Below, one piece after another: positions 9,101 through 43,489 of a stretch of 64,000 bases of DNA. The stretch is taken from positions 248,001 to 312,000 of the forward strand of contig JADBYT010000002.1 of the NCBI GenBank assembly GCA_020402865.1, read 5' to 3'. Numbering within the stretch: the stretch's first letter is position 1; the number at the start of each line of letters is the position of its first letter. The stretch comes from Bacteroidota bacterium. GTDB taxonomy: Bacteria; Bacteroidota; Bacteroidia; Palsa-965. Position numbers and translations under genes: made by a program. Under the pieces are notes generated by a model, which was given only the letters and a program-made list of their open reading frames with translations, ran no database searches and had not been told where the DNA came from.

Positions 9101-12100
9101 CCTACAACTTCGACGTAAACCCGCAACCCGGTTTAACAGCTGGTCTCGCGGCCAATGGTTCGCTGCTCGATCCGGCCTCGCGCTGGGGCGGTATTCAGCG
9201 CAGTATCACCACCAACGACTTTCAGGCCGCCAACATCGAATTCATCCAGATCTGGGTGATGGATCCGTACAACGACGATGTGCCTGTGGCCGACCGCAAC
9301 ACCACCGGCGAACTCGTGATCAACCTCGGTAACGTGTCGGAAGATGTGCTCAAAGATTCGCGCAACGCATTCGAAAACGGACTGCCGGTTGACAACAACT
9401 TCTCGCTGGTGGACACCACCGTGTGGGGCCTTGTGCCTTCGGTGCAGTCGATTGTGAATGCCTTCGATAACGATCCGGCCAAGCGCGCGCTGCAGGATGT
9501 GGGACTTGATGGCTGGGATGATGATAAGGAAGCGCAGTTTTTTGGTGATTACCTCACAGATATTGCTGCGCTGCATGGTCAGGCTTCTCAAGCGTATGCC
9601 AATGCCGTAAAAGATCCCGCCGGCGATAACTTCCACTACTACCGTGGTTCCGACTACGATGCTATTTCGCTGGGTGTGCTTGACCGTTACAAAATGTTCA
9701 ACGGCCTCGATGGCAACTCGCCGCAGGTGGGCGATCCGAACGACGACGGTGTGAGTGAAGATTACCCCACCCAGTCAACCACACTGCCCAACCAGGAAGA
9801 CATTAACCGCGATAATACGCTCAACGAAACCGAGAGCTATTACGAATACCGCATTAAGCTTACGCCCAACGATATTAATCCGGGAAACATCGGTAACAAT
9901 TACATTACCGACGTATATCAGACCACGGTAATTACCAAAGACGGCCGTACACGCCCAATTACCTGGTACCAGCTGCGCATTCCCATCCGCAACTACACCA
10001 CCAAAGTGGGCAACATAGAAGGTTTCAACTCCATCCGCTTTATCCGTATGTATTTCAAAGGCGTGGATAAGCCGGTGGTGTGCCGCTTTGCGCGTCTGGA
10101 ATTTGTGCGCAGCGACTGGCGTAAATATGAATACTCACTGCTTCGTCCGGGCGAGTATATTATGAACGACCAGAACACCACACAGTTTGATGTGGCTGCG
10201 GTGAACATTGAAGAAAACGGAAACCGTGTGCCTGTAAACTATGTGCTGCCTCCCGGTATTGACCGTGAGCAGAACGTAAACAGCAACACACTGGTGCGTT
10301 TGAACGAACAGTCGCTTTCGGTGCGCACCTGCAACCTCGAAGACGGCGATTCGCGCGCGGTGTTCCGCACGGTAAACAACATGGATGTGCGCTCCTACAA
10401 AAAGCTGCGCATGTTTGTACACGCCGAAGCCAATCCGGGCAGTTCGCAGCCGCTTAACAACGGCGATGTAACGGCATTCATACGCATTGGTGCCGACCAG
10501 ACGGATAACTACTACGAGTATGAAATTCCGCTTGAAGTAACACCGCCCGGCCGCTACGGCGAAAACGACCAGGCCGAACGCGAAAAAGTATGGCCGCTTT
10601 CAAACACCATGGAACTGCCTTTCGAGTTGCTGCAGTATGTAAAACAGCAGCGCAACCTTGAGCAGGCCGCCGGCCGGATTTCCCTCACACAGGAATTCAC
10701 AGTTACTGATCCGAACAATCCGGCCCGTAAGGTTACTGTAAAAGGCAACCCGAACCTGGCCATGATCCGTGTGTTTGTGTTGGGCGTGCGCAATCCCAAA
10801 CGCACAAGCGCCACACCTAACGACGATGGAATTCCGAAATGTGCCGAGGTGTGGTTTAACGAATTGCGCCTTACCGATTTCGTGGAAGACGGCGGCTGGG
10901 CGGCTACGGCCCGCGTTACTGCCCGTCTGGCCGATTTTGGTGTGGTAAACCTCTCCGGCAACATGGCTACGCCCAACTTCGGAAGTATTGAAAAGAAAGT
11001 AAGCGAGCGTTTGCGCGAACAGCAAATGAACTACGATGTTTCGACACAGCTCGAACTCGGACGCTTCTTCCCCGAAAAAGCCGGTATCAGCCTGCCGTTC
11101 TTCTGGAACTACGGCGAAACCTACATCACGCCACAGTTTAATCCGCTTGACCCTGACATTCTGCTCAAACCGCTGCTCAGCAATGAATCGCTGCTGAGCG
11201 ACAGGCAAAAAGATTCGTTAATAGGTGCGGCAGTCGATTATACGCGACGGCGAGGCTATAACTTTACAAATATTCATAAGGAAAGGAGTAAGGGTAAAAA
11301 AGGTTCGTACCCGTGGGATATTTCCAATTTCTCGGCCAGTTATGCCTACACCGAAATTTATCGCCACAACGTAAATATCGAGTACAGTTCGGTGCGTAAT
11401 TATCGCGGACAGTTAACTTATTCCTACACGCCGCAGGTGAAACCGTTTAAGCCGTTTGATAAAGCCGGCTGGGCCAAATCAAAATGGTTTACCCTGATCC
11501 GTGAAATCAGTATTTCGCCGCTGCCGTCGAATCTGGCATTTACTACCGACCTCAACCGCTCGTACAGCGAAATAAAAAACCGAAACATCACCGGTTTTGG
11601 CGATGTGTTTGTGCCCACCAACTTCAACAAGAATTTTGTGTGGACACGCAACTACAACCTGCGCTGGGATCTGATGAAGAACCTGAAACTCGATTTCACG
11701 GCCGATAATCTTGGTCAGGTACTCGAGCCGGTGGGTAAAATAGACACCGACGCCAAGCGCGATTCGCTGATCGACAATATTCGCGGATTCGGCACCACAA
11801 TGAATTATCACCACCAGACCAACGTAAATTACACCGTACCGATTAATAAGATTCCGGCTTTCGACTGGCTTACGGCTTCTGTACGTTATTCAAGCGGTTA
11901 CACCTGGCAGCGCGCCCCGCTGGCGGCTGATACGCTGGGTAATGTGGTGGGCAATAACGCACAATGGCAGTACACGGCGCAGGCCAACATGACGTCGCTT
12001 TACAATAAAGTGCCTTACTTTAAAAAAGTAAACCAGAAACGCCCCGGAGGAGGACAGGAACGCCCCGCAGGTGGCGGCCCCAACCGTCCGGGAGCTCCGC

Positions 12101-31479: not shown

Positions 31480-31664
31480 GAGATGTATGACCGGAAATTT
31501 GTTGTAAACTAAATTATCTGCAACACAAGATCGTTGATGTAAACAACCAGTTTGAATCAATTGAGCGTAATCCTGAAAAAATATTTCCCCCTTCAAAACC
31601 CTTGTTAATATTGCGTTTCAGCTATGTGTTCGGGTATTTGAGAAAATATTTTTTGCATTGCCTC

Positions 31665-31696
31665 TTGATAAATTGAAAAACTACTCGTTACATTTG
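31665..31696 (+). promoter_or_regulatory. promoter of the leader RNA / tRNA-array / rtcB locus
   Basis: TTG at 31665-31667 and TACATTTG at 31689-31696 with 21 nt between, matching the Bacteroidota consensus. The expected transcription start is about 31703. It is the last clear promoter I see before the tRNA array, though promoters between the terminators and the tRNAs could exist. Confidence 0.75.
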
Positions 31697-31702
31697 CACC
31701 GT

Positions 31703-31882
31703 AAATCAATCAAAGAACTCAAATGTTTATCCACAGCAACTCACCCATAGGTCTGCAGGCCGATCGCAAGGAACTTGTGTTCCTTACCGCTGCGCCGCTG
31801 CGTGCTGTGTGATGAATGAAACCATAATTCACTCACCCAAAACGCCCGGCGAACCACAAACGCCGGGCGTTTTGGCGTTTTT
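31703..31882 (+). ncRNA. structured leader RNA or small RNA, novel
   Basis: Between a consensus promoter and a strong terminator lies about 180 nt with layered secondary structure. A 7-bp outer helix (CACAGCA at about 31732, TGCTGTG at about 31803) encloses hairpins GGTC-TGCA-GGCC and AAGGAAC-TTGT-GTTCCTT, and a direct repeat CGCTGCG. It could be an independent small RNA or an attenuator leader for the downstream tRNA array and rtcB. No known RNA family is recognised. Confidence 0.5.
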
Positions 31883-32020
31883 ACACACATGATCAGCCAG
31901 TACAAACACATGCTGAATTTTTCACTTGTCATATCCGCACCGTGCGCGGATGTACGCAAGTATGGAATTGTACTGTCTGGCCGAAAGAAAATCGGATCCG
32001 TTTGTTTTGCATTACAGTGA
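31723..32020 (+). other. three overlapping mini-ORFs in the leader
   Basis: ORF1 (31723-31812, 29 codons, begins MFIHSNSPIGLQ) stops in TGATG, which contains the start of ORF2 (31812-31892, 26 codons, MNETIIHSPKTPGEP). ORF2 stops in ATGA, which contains the start of ORF3 (31889-32020, 43 codons, MISQYKHMLNFSL). Stop-start overlaps suggest translational coupling. The first terminator lies inside ORF2, so ribosome position could control termination. Chance cannot be excluded because the ORFs are very short. Confidence 0.35.
31837..31882 (+). terminator. strong intrinsic terminator in the leader
   Basis: A perfect 15-bp stem, CCAAAACGCCCGGCG with CGCCGGGCGTTTTGG, closes a 9-nt loop; CGTTTTT follows. 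It lies about 150 nt after the predicted transcription start and ahead of the tRNA array. Confidence 0.85.
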
Positions 32021-32036
32021 TGTAATGGAAAAACAC

Positions 32037-32070
32037 AAAACCCGGATCCACATACGATCCGGGTTTTTTT
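32037..32070 (+). terminator. second intrinsic terminator ahead of the tRNA array
   Basis: AAACCCGGATC-CACATAC-GATCCGGGTTT, 11 bp, followed by further T residues. A small hairpin (CATTACA-GTGA-TGTAATG) precedes it at about 32009. Two consecutive terminators between a promoter and the tRNA genes suggest regulated read-through or separate short RNAs. Confidence 0.85.
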
Positions 32071-32118
32071 ATGCCCTGATCTGAAAAAATGAATTGTTCG
32101 TTGACATACTGTAATTCT

Positions 32119-32196
32119 TGCAGGAGCCGCATTTTCAGGACATCGTAACCCGATTCCGTGCCGGTTCCCTTCCGGTGTTAACCCCAGGCTCCTGCA
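32119..32196 (+). ncRNA. tRNA-sized structured RNA with 10-bp closing stem
   Basis: TGCAGGAGCC and GGCTCCTGCA pair perfectly, closing a 78-nt unit, the size of a tRNA, six nt before the first tRNA gene. Inside is a hairpin GCCGG-TTCCCTT-CCGGT whose loop recalls a T loop, but no canonical D or anticodon arm can be drawn. It may be a degenerate tRNA, a processing signal or a regulatory RNA. Confidence 0.5.
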
Positions 32197-32201
32197 TACA
32201 T

Positions 32202-32275
32202 TGCTTCGTGGCGCAATTGGTTAGCGCAGCAGATTTTTACTCTGCGGGTTGAAGGTTCGAGTCCTTCCGGGGCAA
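32202..32275 (+). tRNA. tRNA-Lys (TTT), unusual acceptor
   Basis: A cloverleaf can be drawn fully: acceptor TGCTTCG/CGGGGCA (two G.U), D stem GCGC/GCGC, anticodon arm GCAGA-TTTTTAC-TCTGC with anticodon TTT, T arm GAAGG-TTCGAGT-CCTTC, discriminator A. Position 8 is T as expected. The first pair is T1:A72 instead of the usual G1:C72 for Lys. No CCA is encoded. Confidence 0.85.
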
Positions 32276-32278
32276 CAT

Positions 32279-32352
32279 TGTTGCATGGCGCAATCGGTTA
32301 GCGCAGGTGTCTTATACGCACCCGGATGAAGGTTCGAATCCTTCTGCAACAA
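32279..32352 (+). tRNA. tRNA-Ile (TAT), rare anticodon
   Basis: Acceptor TGTTGCA/TGCAACA is perfect, D stem GCGC/GCGC, anticodon arm GGTGT-CTTATAC-GCACC with anticodon TAT, T arm GAAGG-TTCGAAT-CCTTC, discriminator A. Most bacteria read AUA with a CAT anticodon modified to lysidine, so TAT is unusual. It lies three nt after tRNA-Lys and shares its D arm and T stem, so the two look like relatives. Confidence 0.85.
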
Positions 32353-32360
32353 CTTACTTC

Positions 32361-32437
32361 TTGCCGCGCCGGTAGCTCAAACGAAAGAGCAGCCGTTTGT
32401 ATGGTGTGTAAAGGTTAAAGCCCTTTCCGGCCGGCAA
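32361..32437 (+). tRNA. tRNA-like gene, Thr(TGT)-like with shortened anticodon arm
   Basis: The ends pair over 11 bp with one bulged C (TTGCCG-c-GCCGG / CCGGCCGGCAA). The D arm GCTC/GAGC and T stem AAAGG/CCTTT are intact, but the T loop is TTAAAGC, not TTCRANY. Only 18 nt lie between the D arm and T stem instead of about 21, so the anticodon stem is reduced to about three pairs around GTTTGTAT. If read as a tRNA the anticodon would be TGT. It is probably not a working elongator. Confidence 0.5.
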
Positions 32438-32442
32438 ATTCA

Positions 32443-32514
32443 GGACGAGTAGCTCAGCTGGCAGAGCACCGGTTTGAAAAACCGGCCGCAGAGGTTCGAC
32501 TCCTCTCTTGTCCG
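32443..32514 (+). tRNA. tRNA-Phe (GAA)
   Basis: Acceptor GGACGAG/CTTGTCC, D stem GCTC/GAGC, anticodon arm CCGGT-TTGAAAA-ACCGG with GAA, T arm AGAGG-TTCGACT-CCTCT. The cloverleaf is sound. The discriminator is G, while bacterial tRNA-Phe normally has A73, an identity base for the synthetase. Confidence 0.88.
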
Positions 32515-32542
32515 CAATGGCCGCAGCAATGCAGCCACAACA

Positions 32543-32615
32543 GGGTTGATAGCTCAACGGGAAGAGCACCCGACTACGGATCGGGAGCGTACAGGTTCGA
32601 ATCCTGTTTAACCCT
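32543..32615 (+). tRNA. tRNA-Arg (ACG)
   Basis: Acceptor GGGTTGA/TTAACCC, D stem GCTC/GAGC, anticodon arm CCCGA-CTACGGA-TCGGG with ACG, variable loop AGCGT, T arm ACAGG-TTCGAAT-CCTGT. The discriminator is T, unusual for Arg. ACG would be edited to ICG by TadA. Confidence 0.88.
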
Positions 32616-32621
32616 CAAAAT

Positions 32622-32692
32622 GGTAACAATGGTGCAATGGCAGCACGCCGGTTTGTGGCACCGGAAATCAGGGTTCGATTCCCGTTGTTGCC
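32622..32692 (+). tRNA. tRNA-His (GTG), slightly irregular T arm
   Basis: G-1 opposite C73 and acceptor GTAACAA/TTGTTGC are the His hallmark; D stem GTGC/GCAC; anticodon arm CCGGT-TTGTGGC-ACCGG with GTG. In this alignment the T stem (CAGGG...CCCG) has a bulged A and only four pairs. The anticodon and G-1 make the identity firm; the T arm makes function less certain. Confidence 0.78.
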
Positions 32693-32754
32693 CTTTACAA
32701 ATTGGTTTAAAATAATTCACACAAAGAACAAATCACACAAACACAAAATGAGTC

Positions 32755-32892
32755 ATGACCAACATCTCACACATTCGGATCATGCTCCGGACAGAAGGTG
32801 TTCGGATCGTGGCCGGCAACGAAACCACACACGGAGTTATTTCGCCTGTTGTTACCGAAATAGCTCCTGATGATGACTGTGACAACGATTAA
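32755..32892 (+). CDS. short acidic-tailed ORF between tRNA array and rtcB
   Basis: 45 codons from ATG 32755 (MTNISHIRIMLRTEGVRIV), ending in an acidic tail (APDDDCDND). I do not recognise it. A 40-codon ORF in another frame (from 32747) overlaps it and looks less protein-like. Support is only the plausible composition and its place in a plus-strand run toward rtcB. Confidence 0.3.
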   Translation: MTNISHIRIMLRTEGVRIVAGNETTHGVISPVVTEIAPDDDCDND

Positions 32893-32945
32893 TGATGTTA
32901 AACCTTGCGGCCGCCGGGCTGCAGTAAAAGCAGAAAGGAGATGCG

Positions 32946-33161
32946 ATGAAAAAAAATCCGGTTCACAACGAGTTCGTGTTCGACGAACGACCGGTTTGTG
33001 TGTATGGCAACATGTACATCAAGCCTCAGGTAAATTCAATGCCGGTGCGCGTGTTTCTTACTGCAGCCCGGCACATCAATACTTTAATTCATAAAGTAAG
33101 TCTGTATGGCAAAATTATCTCTTACCGCAAAAGACCTGCGCCGCCTTGGTTACACACCTGA
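32946..33161 (+). CDS. 71-residue ORF with strong ribosome site, overlapping rtcB start
   Basis: Begins MKKNPVHNEFVFDERPVCVYG at 32946. AAAGGAGATGCG directly before the ATG is a strong Shine-Dalgarno sequence, rare in Bacteroidota, which argues for real translation. The end overlaps the first 56 bp of rtcB in another frame, so translational coupling is possible. No family is recognised. The distal basic part (SYRKRPAPPW) lies in the overlap and may be constrained only by rtcB. Confidence 0.45.
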   Translation: MKKNPVHNEFVFDERPVCVYGNMYIKPQVNSMPVRVFLTAARHINTLIHKVSLYGKIISYRKRPAPPWLHT

Positions 33162-34506
33162 TGCGGCGGTGAGCACGGCTTTGCGCGTAATGCACAAGCA
33201 TTACAAACATCACAGCGCGGCAGAAGTGCTTCAGCTGCTGCGTGAAATACTTAAAACGCCCGATGCGTTTGAAGCCGATGAAGTGCTTGGCGAAATTGCC
33301 ACGCATTTTATTGAAGCCAAAGAAGAAGAAGTACCGCAGCAGGAACTGCGCAGCAAGCCTGCCGATATTTTCATCTTCGGTGCTGAACATGTGGATCATG
33401 CTGCCATCGACCAGCTGCGCAGTGCGGCGCGCTTACCGGTGGCTGTAAGCGGTGCGCTTATGCCTGATGCGCATTCGGGATACGGCCTGCCAATTGGCGG
33501 TGTGCTGGCTACTGAAAATGCGGTAATTCCTTACGGTGTGGGCGTTGACATTGGCTGCCGCATGTGTTTAACGGTGTATGATTTGCATGCGTATGAACTC
33601 AATCGCAAACACAAGCAACTTGAAACAGCCTTGCTGCGCCACACTTATTTCGGCTCCGGCCGCGAACTTGGCAAAGCAAAAGAGCACGAAGTAATTGACC
33701 GCCCCGAGTTTGGCGAACTTGCCTTGCTGCGCAAACTTCAGGGCAAGGCCGCAAAACAGCTGGGCACTTCGGGCTCAGGCAATCATTTTGTAGAATTCGG
33801 TGAAGTGGAAATTCTGGCCGACTGGCCCGAACGCAACCTCAAAGCCGGGCGTTACATCGGGCTGCTTTCGCACTCAGGCTCGCGCGGGCTGGGCGCTTCC
33901 ATTGCCACGCATTACACCGAAGTAGCCAAACAATGGTGCAAGCTGCCGCGTCAGTTGCAGCACTTGGCCTGGCTGCCCATGGACTGGTTTGAAGGGCAGG
34001 CCTATTGGAAAGCCATGAACCTTGCCGGCGACTATGCATCAGCCTGCCACGAAGTGATTCACCAAAGCATCACGCGCGAAATTGATCTTACGCCGCTGGC
34101 GGTGATTGAAAACCACCACAATTTTGCGTGGAAGGAAATTCACCACGGCCGCGAAGTAATTGTGCATCGCAAAGGTGCTACACCGGCTGCTAAAGACGAA
34201 GCCGGCATTATACCCGGTTCCATGACTGCGCCCGGATTTATTGTGCGCGGCCGTGGCGAAACTACTTCGCTGCATTCCGCTTCGCACGGTGCCGGGCGAT
34301 TAATGTCGCGTTCACGTGCCAAAGAGTCCATCACCCGCAATGCCATGCATGCGTTGCTTCAGCAGCACGGCGTAACCTTGCACGGCGGCGGTTTGGACGA
34401 GGCCCCGCAGGCCTACAAAAATATCAACGAGGTAATGCACGCGCAGCAAAACCTTGTGGATATTGCCGGCACTTTCCGTCCGCGTATTGTGCGTATGGAC
34501 GGGTAA
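33106..34506 (+). CDS. rtcB: RtcB-family RNA ligase
   Basis: 466 residues, normal length. Motifs: DAHSGYGLPIGG, metal-site Cys in GVGVDIGCRMCL, GTSGSGNHFVEFGEV, HSGSRGLG, HNFAWKEIHHG, SASHGAGRLMSRSRA (guanylate-linked His region) and LHGGGLDEAPQAYKN near the end. RtcB joins 2',3'-cyclic phosphate to 5'-OH RNA ends with GTP and Mn2+ and repairs cleaved tRNA or rRNA in bacteria. No RtcA, archease or RtcR is visible nearby. It ends the plus-strand run that starts with the leader RNA and tRNA array and is followed by two terminators. Confidence 0.96.
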   Translation: MAKLSLTAKDLRRLGYTPDAAVSTALRVMHKHYKHHSAAEVLQLLREILKTPDAFEADEVLGEIATHFIEAKEEEVPQQELRSKPADIFIFGAEHVDHAAIDQLRSAARLPVAVSGALMPDAHSGYGLPIGGVLATENAVIPYGVGVDIGCRMCLTVYDLHAYELNRKHKQLETALLRHTYFGSGRELGKAKEHEVIDRPEFGELALLRKLQGKAAKQLGTSGSGNHFVEFGEVEILADWPERNLKAGRYIGLLSHSGSRGLGASIATHYTEVAKQWCKLPRQLQHLAWLPMDWFEGQAYWKAMNLAGDYASACHEVIHQSITREIDLTPLAVIENHHNFAWKEIHHGREVIVHRKGATPAAKDEAGIIPGSMTAPGFIVRGRGETTSLHSASHGAGRLMSRSRAKESITRNAMHALLQQHGVTLHGGGLDEAPQAYKNINEVMHAQQNLVDIAGTFRPRIVRMDG

Positions 34507-34509
34507 AAT

Positions 34510-34595
34510 GAAAACAGCCGTTCCGGCGCTCCGCTTCACTTATCGTGTTGTTGTCAAAAAATAAGGAGCATGCAGGAACGGCTGTTTTCTTCTCT
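34510..34595 (+). terminator. long inverted repeat/terminator after rtcB
   Basis: GAAAACAGCCGTTCC and GGAACGGCTGTTTTC are a perfect 15-bp inverted repeat separated by 50 nt, three bp after the rtcB stop, followed by TTCT. The long loop is unusual for a simple terminator. Confidence 0.6.
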
Positions 34596-34603
34596 TGTTG
34601 TTT

Positions 34604-34651
34604 CACCGGATTTATTATTTTTCAAAAATAATTATCCGGTGTTTCTTTTTT
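34604..34651 (+). terminator. second terminator after rtcB
   Basis: CACCGGAT...ATCCGGTG forms an 8-bp stem extended by an AT-rich inner stem (TTATTTTT-c-AAAAATAA), followed by TTTCTTTTTT. It closes the locus before the CAP-domain gene. Confidence 0.75.
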
Positions 34652-43082: not shown

Positions 43083-43122
43083 ATTCCGAGGTAGGGTATG
43101 CCTTGCAGCCGGAAGCACACTG

Positions 43123-43229
43123 ACTTATCTTCACTCCGTTTGTTGGAGCAGGAAGTGGCACCTTCATAGCCTGAGCCGTGGGTTGCCAAGGTTTCGCAGG
43201 GCACAGTCCCTCCACCTTTCTGGATAAGT
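43123..43229 (-). promoter_or_regulatory. SAM-I (S-box) riboswitch aptamer
   Basis: On the minus strand P1 is ACTTATC...GATAAGT. It encloses the family core: CCAGAAAGGTGGAGGGACTG, then GCCC-TGC-GAAACC and GGCAACC, followed by a P3/P4 region. These are the conserved S-box segments. Binding S-adenosylmethionine should favour the terminator at 43051-43082 and shut off the methyltransferase-metH operon. Confidence 0.92.
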
Positions 43230-43489
43230 TGTTTTGTTTGAGAACGTGGTGCAAATATAGGTTTTTAAACCGTAGCAACAGGGTGTTTAAGGCATTACGA
43301 AAATCAAAATAAGAAAATGAAAGGTGCGTAGGGGTATTAGTTATTGTTCCTGTCTTGTTAGTGTATCTCCCAGTACAATGATTCAAAAATTATGGCATGT
43401 GCAGTAACCCTTTTGGTGCATTATTCGTCACAAGGCAGCTGTTGAATGCTTGTTTTTGTATCTTTAAAACCTCTCACCACTACACCATT

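Follow-up and report, generated by a model that had tools for sequence, protein, structure and literature searches.

A putative inducible tRNA-rescue operon, with RtcB and spare tRNAs behind tandem leader-peptide attenuators, in Bacteroidota

Leader-peptide attenuation, RNA repair by the ligase RtcB, and silent operons of transfer RNAs (tRNAs) are each known separately. Here we describe a locus at positions 31665-34651 of a 64,000-nucleotide stretch of a Bacteroidota genome (contig JADBYT010000002.1, positions 248,001 to 312,000 of the forward strand; the whole stretch is hereafter "the window"), in which all three appear to be combined. In the trp, his, and thr attenuators, a short open reading frame (ORF) is followed by a terminator and a mutually exclusive antiterminator, with ribosome stalling as the signal and one or a few regulatory codons repeated in the peptide. 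The same parts are present here, but the peptide draws on almost the whole set of amino acids, with tRNAs and repair, as opposed to biosynthesis, as the cargo. The Pseudomonas MexXY leader peptide reportedly also ties gene expression, through ribosome stalling, to a defect in translation or tRNA; unlike the locus described here, however, its cargo is efflux and it has no tRNA array.

In Anabaena PCC 7120, a silent trn operon of 26 tRNAs and rtcB are united in the TrcR regulon (PMC10272220). There, as here, the tRNAs are supernumerary; the Anabaena operon, otherwise silent, is switched on under translation stress and shares its regulation with RtcB, and its regulon contains slipin, HNH, GNAT, and AAA ATPase proteins, i.e., classes shared with the rtcB operons of Bacteroidota (PMC10272220). 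However, in Anabaena a repressor protein links tRNAs and rtcB that are located separately, whereas here both belong to a single operon with leader-peptide attenuators. In the Salmonella rsr-yrlBA-rtcBA system, which includes rtcA and Y RNAs, RtcR senses tRNA halves with a CARF domain; this is likewise an RtcB repair operon, induced by damaged tRNA, but without a tRNA array (PMC7790460). Neither rtcA nor RtcR is encoded among the genes adjoining the window rtcB locus, and the best match to the Y RNA YrlA (23.2 bits versus a gathering threshold of 69) lies over an ordinary tRNA. Phage tRNA arrays, finally, carry spare tRNAs with altered anticodon-loop positions that are proposed to escape host nucleases; these arrays are phage-borne, with no attenuator and no rtcB link described (PMC10264068). 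In the open-access full-text literature, outside of which the main RtcB survey falls, no all-amino-acid leader peptide controlling tRNAs or rtcB was found. The 2016 survey of RtcB neighbourhoods by Burroughs and Aravind is said to report SPFH proteins with tRNA-like RNA, and part of the rtcB-tRNA link may thus be known.

The window locus is probably an inducible tRNA-rescue operon under the control of tandem leader-peptide attenuators, a reading for which all of the evidence is computational (sequence comparison, folding predictions, and shuffle statistics). All of its parts lie on the plus strand of the genome (G000, a 4.9-Mb assembly in 49 contigs). An initial annotation of the window had already reported the promoter, two terminators, a structured RNA, two mini-ORFs, an intact rtcB, and two closing hairpins, each of which was recovered at the same positions in our analysis; it had also suggested that RtcB may be controlled through the terminators. 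Control of the tRNAs and RtcB by the two terminators is supported here, both terminators being predicted attenuators. The tRNA array was put forward there as a possible sensor, but this role most likely belongs to two leader peptides encoded between promoter and array, which had been overlooked. Transcription would begin at a Bacteroidota -33/-7-type promoter (31665-31696; pattern match to TTG-N21-TAcaTTTG, which occurs four times on the plus strand of the window), with an alignable counterpart at L136:5250 in a genome of the same family (G007). Use of TTG-N-TAnnTTTG as a general promoter test was dropped, as the pattern fits G000, G007, and a genome of the same genus (G006), but not most other loci.

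Between promoter and array, a short ORF preceding an intrinsic terminator occurs twice. Leader peptide 1 (MFIHSNSPIGLQADRKELVFLTAAPLRAV; 29 amino acids of 17 types; 31723-31812), found at the same position in G006 and G007, is followed by terminator 1 (31838-31874; -26.9 kcal/mol for the folded stretch), while leader peptide 2 (MISQYKHMLNFSLVISAPCADVRKYGIVLSGRKKIGSVCFALQ; 43 amino acids, again of 17 types; 31889-32020) is followed by terminator 2 (32037-32067; -18.3 kcal/mol). In each case, the 3' end of the leader ORF can pair with the 5' arm of the terminator behind it; for the first attenuator, co-transcriptional folding predicts an antiterminator strand at 31793-31803, at the end of the ORF, while in the Niastella group the complementary pair is TTGCGGGGC, encoding CGA, and GCCCCGCAA. 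To follow the switch, the RNA 3' of a ribosome set at each codon was folded and compared with 300 dinucleotide shuffles. With the ribosome upstream, the terminator 5' arm is predicted to pair with leader RNA at 0.5-0.99, and this pairing drops once the ribosome reaches the final 7-9 codons. As the ribosome nears the stop codon in the window, predicted antiterminator pairing falls from 0.87 to 0.03 at terminator 1 (T1; 1/300 shuffles as large) and from 0.65 to 0.08 at terminator 2 (T2; 8/300); among relatives, the corresponding shuffle counts were 0/300 for T1 of L142 and 3/300 for T2 of L136. In the window, the predicted switch, in which antiterminator and terminator exclude each other and a ribosome approaching the end of the ORF would block the former, is well supported. 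No T-box match was detected in Rfam up to E=1 in 31650-33110, nor did any Rfam leader family match the leaders.

What sets the leaders of relatives apart is their amino-acid coverage, with nearly all 20 types held in some 30 codons. Picking attenuators by amino-acid diversity was dropped as circular, and was replaced by selection on complementarity and then by an RNA-only motif. Leaders picked only by complementarity held on average 1.8 amino-acid types above expectation, in a sample that is not independent. For 33 aligned leaders, the mean was 17.82 types against 16.50 (sd 0.185) after shuffling within alignment columns, a value reached in 0/4000 shuffles; 26 non-redundant leaders (<70% identity) gave 17.54 against 16.31, again with 0/4000. 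The same column shuffle applied to 43 RtcB windows as a control gave a mean z of -0.2 and a maximum of 3.6, versus 7.1 for the leaders; an amino acid lost at one position thus tends to appear at another, i.e., coverage in the relatives is selected, being kept by compensatory change. All 20 amino acids are found within 30, 30, 37, and 39 codons in full-coverage relatives, including MLRKQSHIEVLNGWSPIGDFTVCGACYAEE (30 codons), MFSKLNLYIQTLPAVRCADTQIGSEDMRLIGRHYWFR (37 codons), and MFSTVKNYIHNFTTEPRGLQGCNTEDMWLFGRRARHFMK (39 codons), and the two leader peptides of relatives jointly hold every amino acid. Differences between leader ORFs fall more often at third codon positions (423) than at the other two (282 and 292), as expected if these ORFs are translated. 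The window leaders contain 17 of 20 amino acids each and 19 combined, with no Trp. Over its first 20 codons, leader 1 covers 16 types, which is above chance (p=0.010; p=0.006 for three genomes combined), while the coverage of leader 2 by itself is not (p=0.59); both leaders contain all five amino acids served by the array (K, I, F, R, and H), with whole-leader coverage not significant. The case for a general sensor hence rests on the relatives, and would extend to the window through the shared architecture.

From this layout we infer the following mechanism. A single promoter would drive a leader with two consecutive attenuators, then supernumerary tRNAs, two small proteins, and RtcB. While charged tRNAs are plentiful, the ribosome would trail RNA polymerase to the end of the leader ORF and mask the antiterminator strand, allowing the terminator to form and keeping the operon off. 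When a needed tRNA is gone (whether nuclease-cut, uncharged, or scarce), the ribosome would stall upstream and leave the antiterminator strand free to capture the terminator 5' arm, so that transcription continues into the emergency tRNAs and rtcB. The divergent tRNA copies would then replace those lost, with RtcB re-ligating those that were cut. With nearly every amino acid represented in the peptides, such a switch would answer the loss of almost any tRNA; as the terminators stand in series, both peptides would have to stall, which would account for the breadth of both in the relatives. On balance, though with less assurance, we also lean towards the broader view of a universal tRNA-depletion sensor, widespread in Bacteroidota, in which all-twenty leader peptides and serial attenuators release a nuclease-evading second tRNA set together with RtcB. 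If true, a peptide querying all amino acids would represent a new principle by which cells detect damage to their translation machinery with no need for a protein sensor, and would provide both a clear inducing signal for RtcB in Bacteroidota and a reason why bacteria retain silent spare tRNA sets. Toxins that cleave tRNA and nucleases of phage defence could also be detected with the leader as a ready-made reporter.

Several observations weigh against this interpretation. The predicted switch does not stand above shuffles in some relatives (87/300 for T1 and 64/300 for T2 of L137; 76/300 for L138), and is likewise weaker in L147. Folding of the final state often favours the terminator, and finished terminators are usually stabler than antiterminators; the order of synthesis must therefore decide (kinetic switching), as in classical attenuation. 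The 33 leaders are kin, and column shuffling leaves some of this relatedness in, while whole-leader counts are not significant for the window or for the two relatives from its family (p 0.10 to 0.65). The array tRNAs may also be decaying; in the window, tRNA-His lacks G-1 and tRNA-Phe carries G73.

The leaders could instead belong to a general translation-stress attenuator that senses any slowing of the ribosome (e.g., by antibiotics or starvation) and raises tRNA supply, with tRNA cleavage not being the main signal. The Anabaena trn operon, with its 26 tRNAs, is induced together with rtcB by translation inhibitors (PMC10272220), and the attenuator mechanism proposed above would respond to such inhibitors too. 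A generic stall sensor, however, would have no use for a complete set of amino acids, whereas coverage is selected; moreover, RtcB as the constant partner suggests that the trigger is cut RNA. There is overlap between the two readings, but we consider translation stress at large to be an unlikely principal signal.

The tRNA-rescue reading also depends on what the array encodes. Six tRNA or tRNA-like genes had been listed in the initial annotation; five of these are canonical by ARAGORN and Rfam (47-67 bits), namely tRNA-Lys(UUU) (32202-32276; 65 bits; 64% identity to its housekeeping copy), tRNA-Ile(UAU) (32279-32353; 66.6 bits), tRNA-Phe(GAA) (32443-32515; discriminator G73, versus A73 in G006 and G007), tRNA-Arg(ACG) (32543-32616), and tRNA-His(GUG) (32622-32693, the gene having no G at -1), whereas the sixth (32363-32437) is only marginal (29.2 bits, with a gathering threshold of 29). 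A relaxed ARAGORN scan for degenerate tRNAs (-ps80) was abandoned as too noisy. The 43 tRNAs found genome-wide include housekeeping counterparts of the array tRNAs for Lys, Phe, Arg, and His; the array is therefore supernumerary as opposed to the sole source, with only the Ile(UAU) anticodon being unique to it, which bears out the earlier suggestion of an RNA-repair operon with spare tRNAs. In three genomes, identity between array and housekeeping tRNAs of the same anticodon is 63%, as compared to 86% for housekeeping tRNAs between genera, and full agreement at loop positions 32, 33, 37, and 38 is seen in 10/27 array-housekeeping pairs versus 62/68 housekeeping pairs (p=1.5e-7). Such divergence would fit nuclease evasion as proposed for phage tRNAs, and would equally fit relaxed constraint, because array tRNAs diverge everywhere. 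As a separate observation, the tRNA-Ile(UAU) loop CTTATAC is invariant in 7/7 arrays (that of the window, L136, L140-L142, L144, and L145); this tRNA could decode AUA with no need for the lysidine that TilS introduces.

In the marginal element at 32363-32437, the acceptor stem is 8-9 bp long, the D loop (AAACGAAA) lacks GG, the T loop (TTAAAGC) lacks C56, and GUA sits in an anticodon loop of 8 nt; in the absence of the D-loop GG and C56, the usual contact between D and T loops should break. In G006 and G007 it is conserved as well, again directly 5' of tRNA-Phe (nhmmer 4e-21 to 7e-23, with these three sequences as seeds), and covariation among the three yields three compensated pairs, with 74/500 shuffles as good. 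The element is present only in G000, G006, and G007, and was thus ruled out as a general feature; it is possibly a scaffold or fragment sensor. Its conservation despite these losses, together with the loss of identity elements from some array tRNAs, lends some credit to a decoy role, as raised in the initial annotation, in which tRNA-like RNAs from the array would titrate nucleases or RtcB as decoys or sponges. Most array genes, however, are full cloverleaves (mostly 42-73 bits) that keep their anticodons at nearly one per amino acid, including in distant relatives; for five of the six window genes, cloverleaf scores and retained anticodons speak against decoys. Decoys would also be expected to keep the nuclease-recognized loop, while array loops differ, making this explanation improbable.

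To find attenuators independently of coverage, a search was performed with an RNA-only motif, blind to both the peptide and rtcB. It returned 22 matches in 21/197 genomes of the Niastella family, with 0 for the reversed control. All 22 matches overlap an ORF of about 28-33 codons, mostly in one frame, and most of these ORFs hold 16-20 amino-acid types versus 15 expected. In 18/22 cases, the same strand of the same contig carries rtcB downstream, at a distance of 0.2-13.4 kb (one of the 18 genes being a fragment). In some of these, such as G835 with a distance of only 0.24 kb, there is no room for a tRNA array between motif and rtcB; the attenuator is therefore the constant part, with the tRNA array as variable cargo. 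Class-wide searches with the motif matched 0/395 and 1/394, because in its exact form it belongs to the Niastella family; at the level of RNA, it offers a simple handle for finding more such operons. That a conserved RNA element by itself defines the motif might suggest a real RNA switch in which the leader RNA responds to a protein or ligand and the short ORFs are not read as sensors. Near-constant ORF length in every match, the mostly shared frame, the third-position excess, compensated coverage, and the lack of any matching Rfam leader family all argue otherwise, and we regard this possibility as quite improbable. A second motif attenuator (L246, at G861:C2:444398-444475:-; leader MSFMSQHIAKRNWLTLVEGIGDGGACSAGEK) lies on a contig without rtcB; there, the sensor may control other genes too.

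The operon itself recurs. In both G006 and G007, the order of promoter, two terminators, tRNAs, and rtcB is as in the window, with arrays of 14 and 15 recognized tRNAs, respectively, close to one per amino acid. Across 80 rtcB loci from Bacteroidota, 77 tRNA genes by our count lie up to 6 kb upstream of rtcB in 14 loci, against ~4 expected assuming roughly 45 tRNAs per 5 Mb; the adjacency of rtcB and tRNA arrays thus holds in relatives, contrary to the refuting condition set in the initial annotation. Its list of Lys, Arg, and His as known nuclease targets carries no weight, since the arrays of relatives cover nearly every amino acid. Larger arrays include 20 tRNAs after rtcB in G029 and 28 before rtcB in L147. 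In extended loci, terminators precede the array almost always, mostly two in series and each behind a short ORF; ten further extended rtcB loci have tandem or single attenuators before their arrays (L151 was left out, its terminators being repeats of decayed tRNAs). In other lineages, the interval between array and rtcB holds genes for AAA ATPase, RNase H-like, SPFH/slipin, RlaP pair, DinB_2, HNH, GNAT, and Macro proteins, with PrfH-like release factors downstream. A chance or decaying neighbourhood, i.e., a phage-like tRNA island beside rtcB, would suit the presence of rtcB in only 1/6 other genomes of the genus and the short, partly worn window array, but is highly improbable because the whole architecture recurs in the family, in many further families, and (with up to 28 tRNAs) across Bacteroidota, along with the motif-rtcB link. 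A synteny search with the downstream CAP gene returned homologues of 42-46% and no clean empty site.

The remaining parts of the operon are as follows. Between terminator 2 and the array lies a structured RNA of tRNA size (32119-32196; 10-bp closing stem; -31.5 kcal/mol) with no homologue seen in G006 or G007, possibly a decayed tRNA. Downstream of the array, mini-ORF 1 (32755-32892; 45 amino acids; LRTxGVR...GV.PVV.E..DDD) has a similar ORF in the same place in G007 (L136:8672-8797), while mini-ORF 2 (32946-33161; at most 71 amino acids; Shine-Dalgarno GGAG), which overlaps the rtcB start, has similar ORFs in G007 (L136:9067-9210) and G006, all as judged by eye. The rtcB gene (33106-34506; Pfam PF01139, 1.6e-85) is single-copy in the genome; its product contains the motifs GVGVDIGCRM, GSGNHF, SHSGSRG, NHHNFAW, and HSASHGAGR, covering metal binding and guanylylation, and matches relatives of solved structure at 1.8e-35. 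The operon closes with one hairpin (34510-34589; -39.3 kcal/mol) and then a terminator-like hairpin followed by a T run (34604-34641; -15.7 kcal/mol). Its neighbours encode CAP-domain proteins, an alpha/beta hydrolase, and one ORF without assignment.

Additional attenuator-like elements were encountered at other loci. A third such ORF and terminator lie within the G007 tRNA array (L136:7140-7284), and two on the minus strand of L112 (near 9900-10200 in plus-strand coordinates) face a minus-strand tRNA-Phe downstream of rtcB. In flavobacterial-type loci (L059, L084, L088, L109, and L038), leaders of 25-31 amino acids precede rtcB with no tRNA arrays, and their amino-acid coverage is near chance in most. 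Elsewhere in the window, a riboswitch for S-adenosylmethionine (SAM; 43122-43230, minus strand; 72.9 bits) lies upstream of methyltransferase-like and MetH-like ORFs on the same strand.

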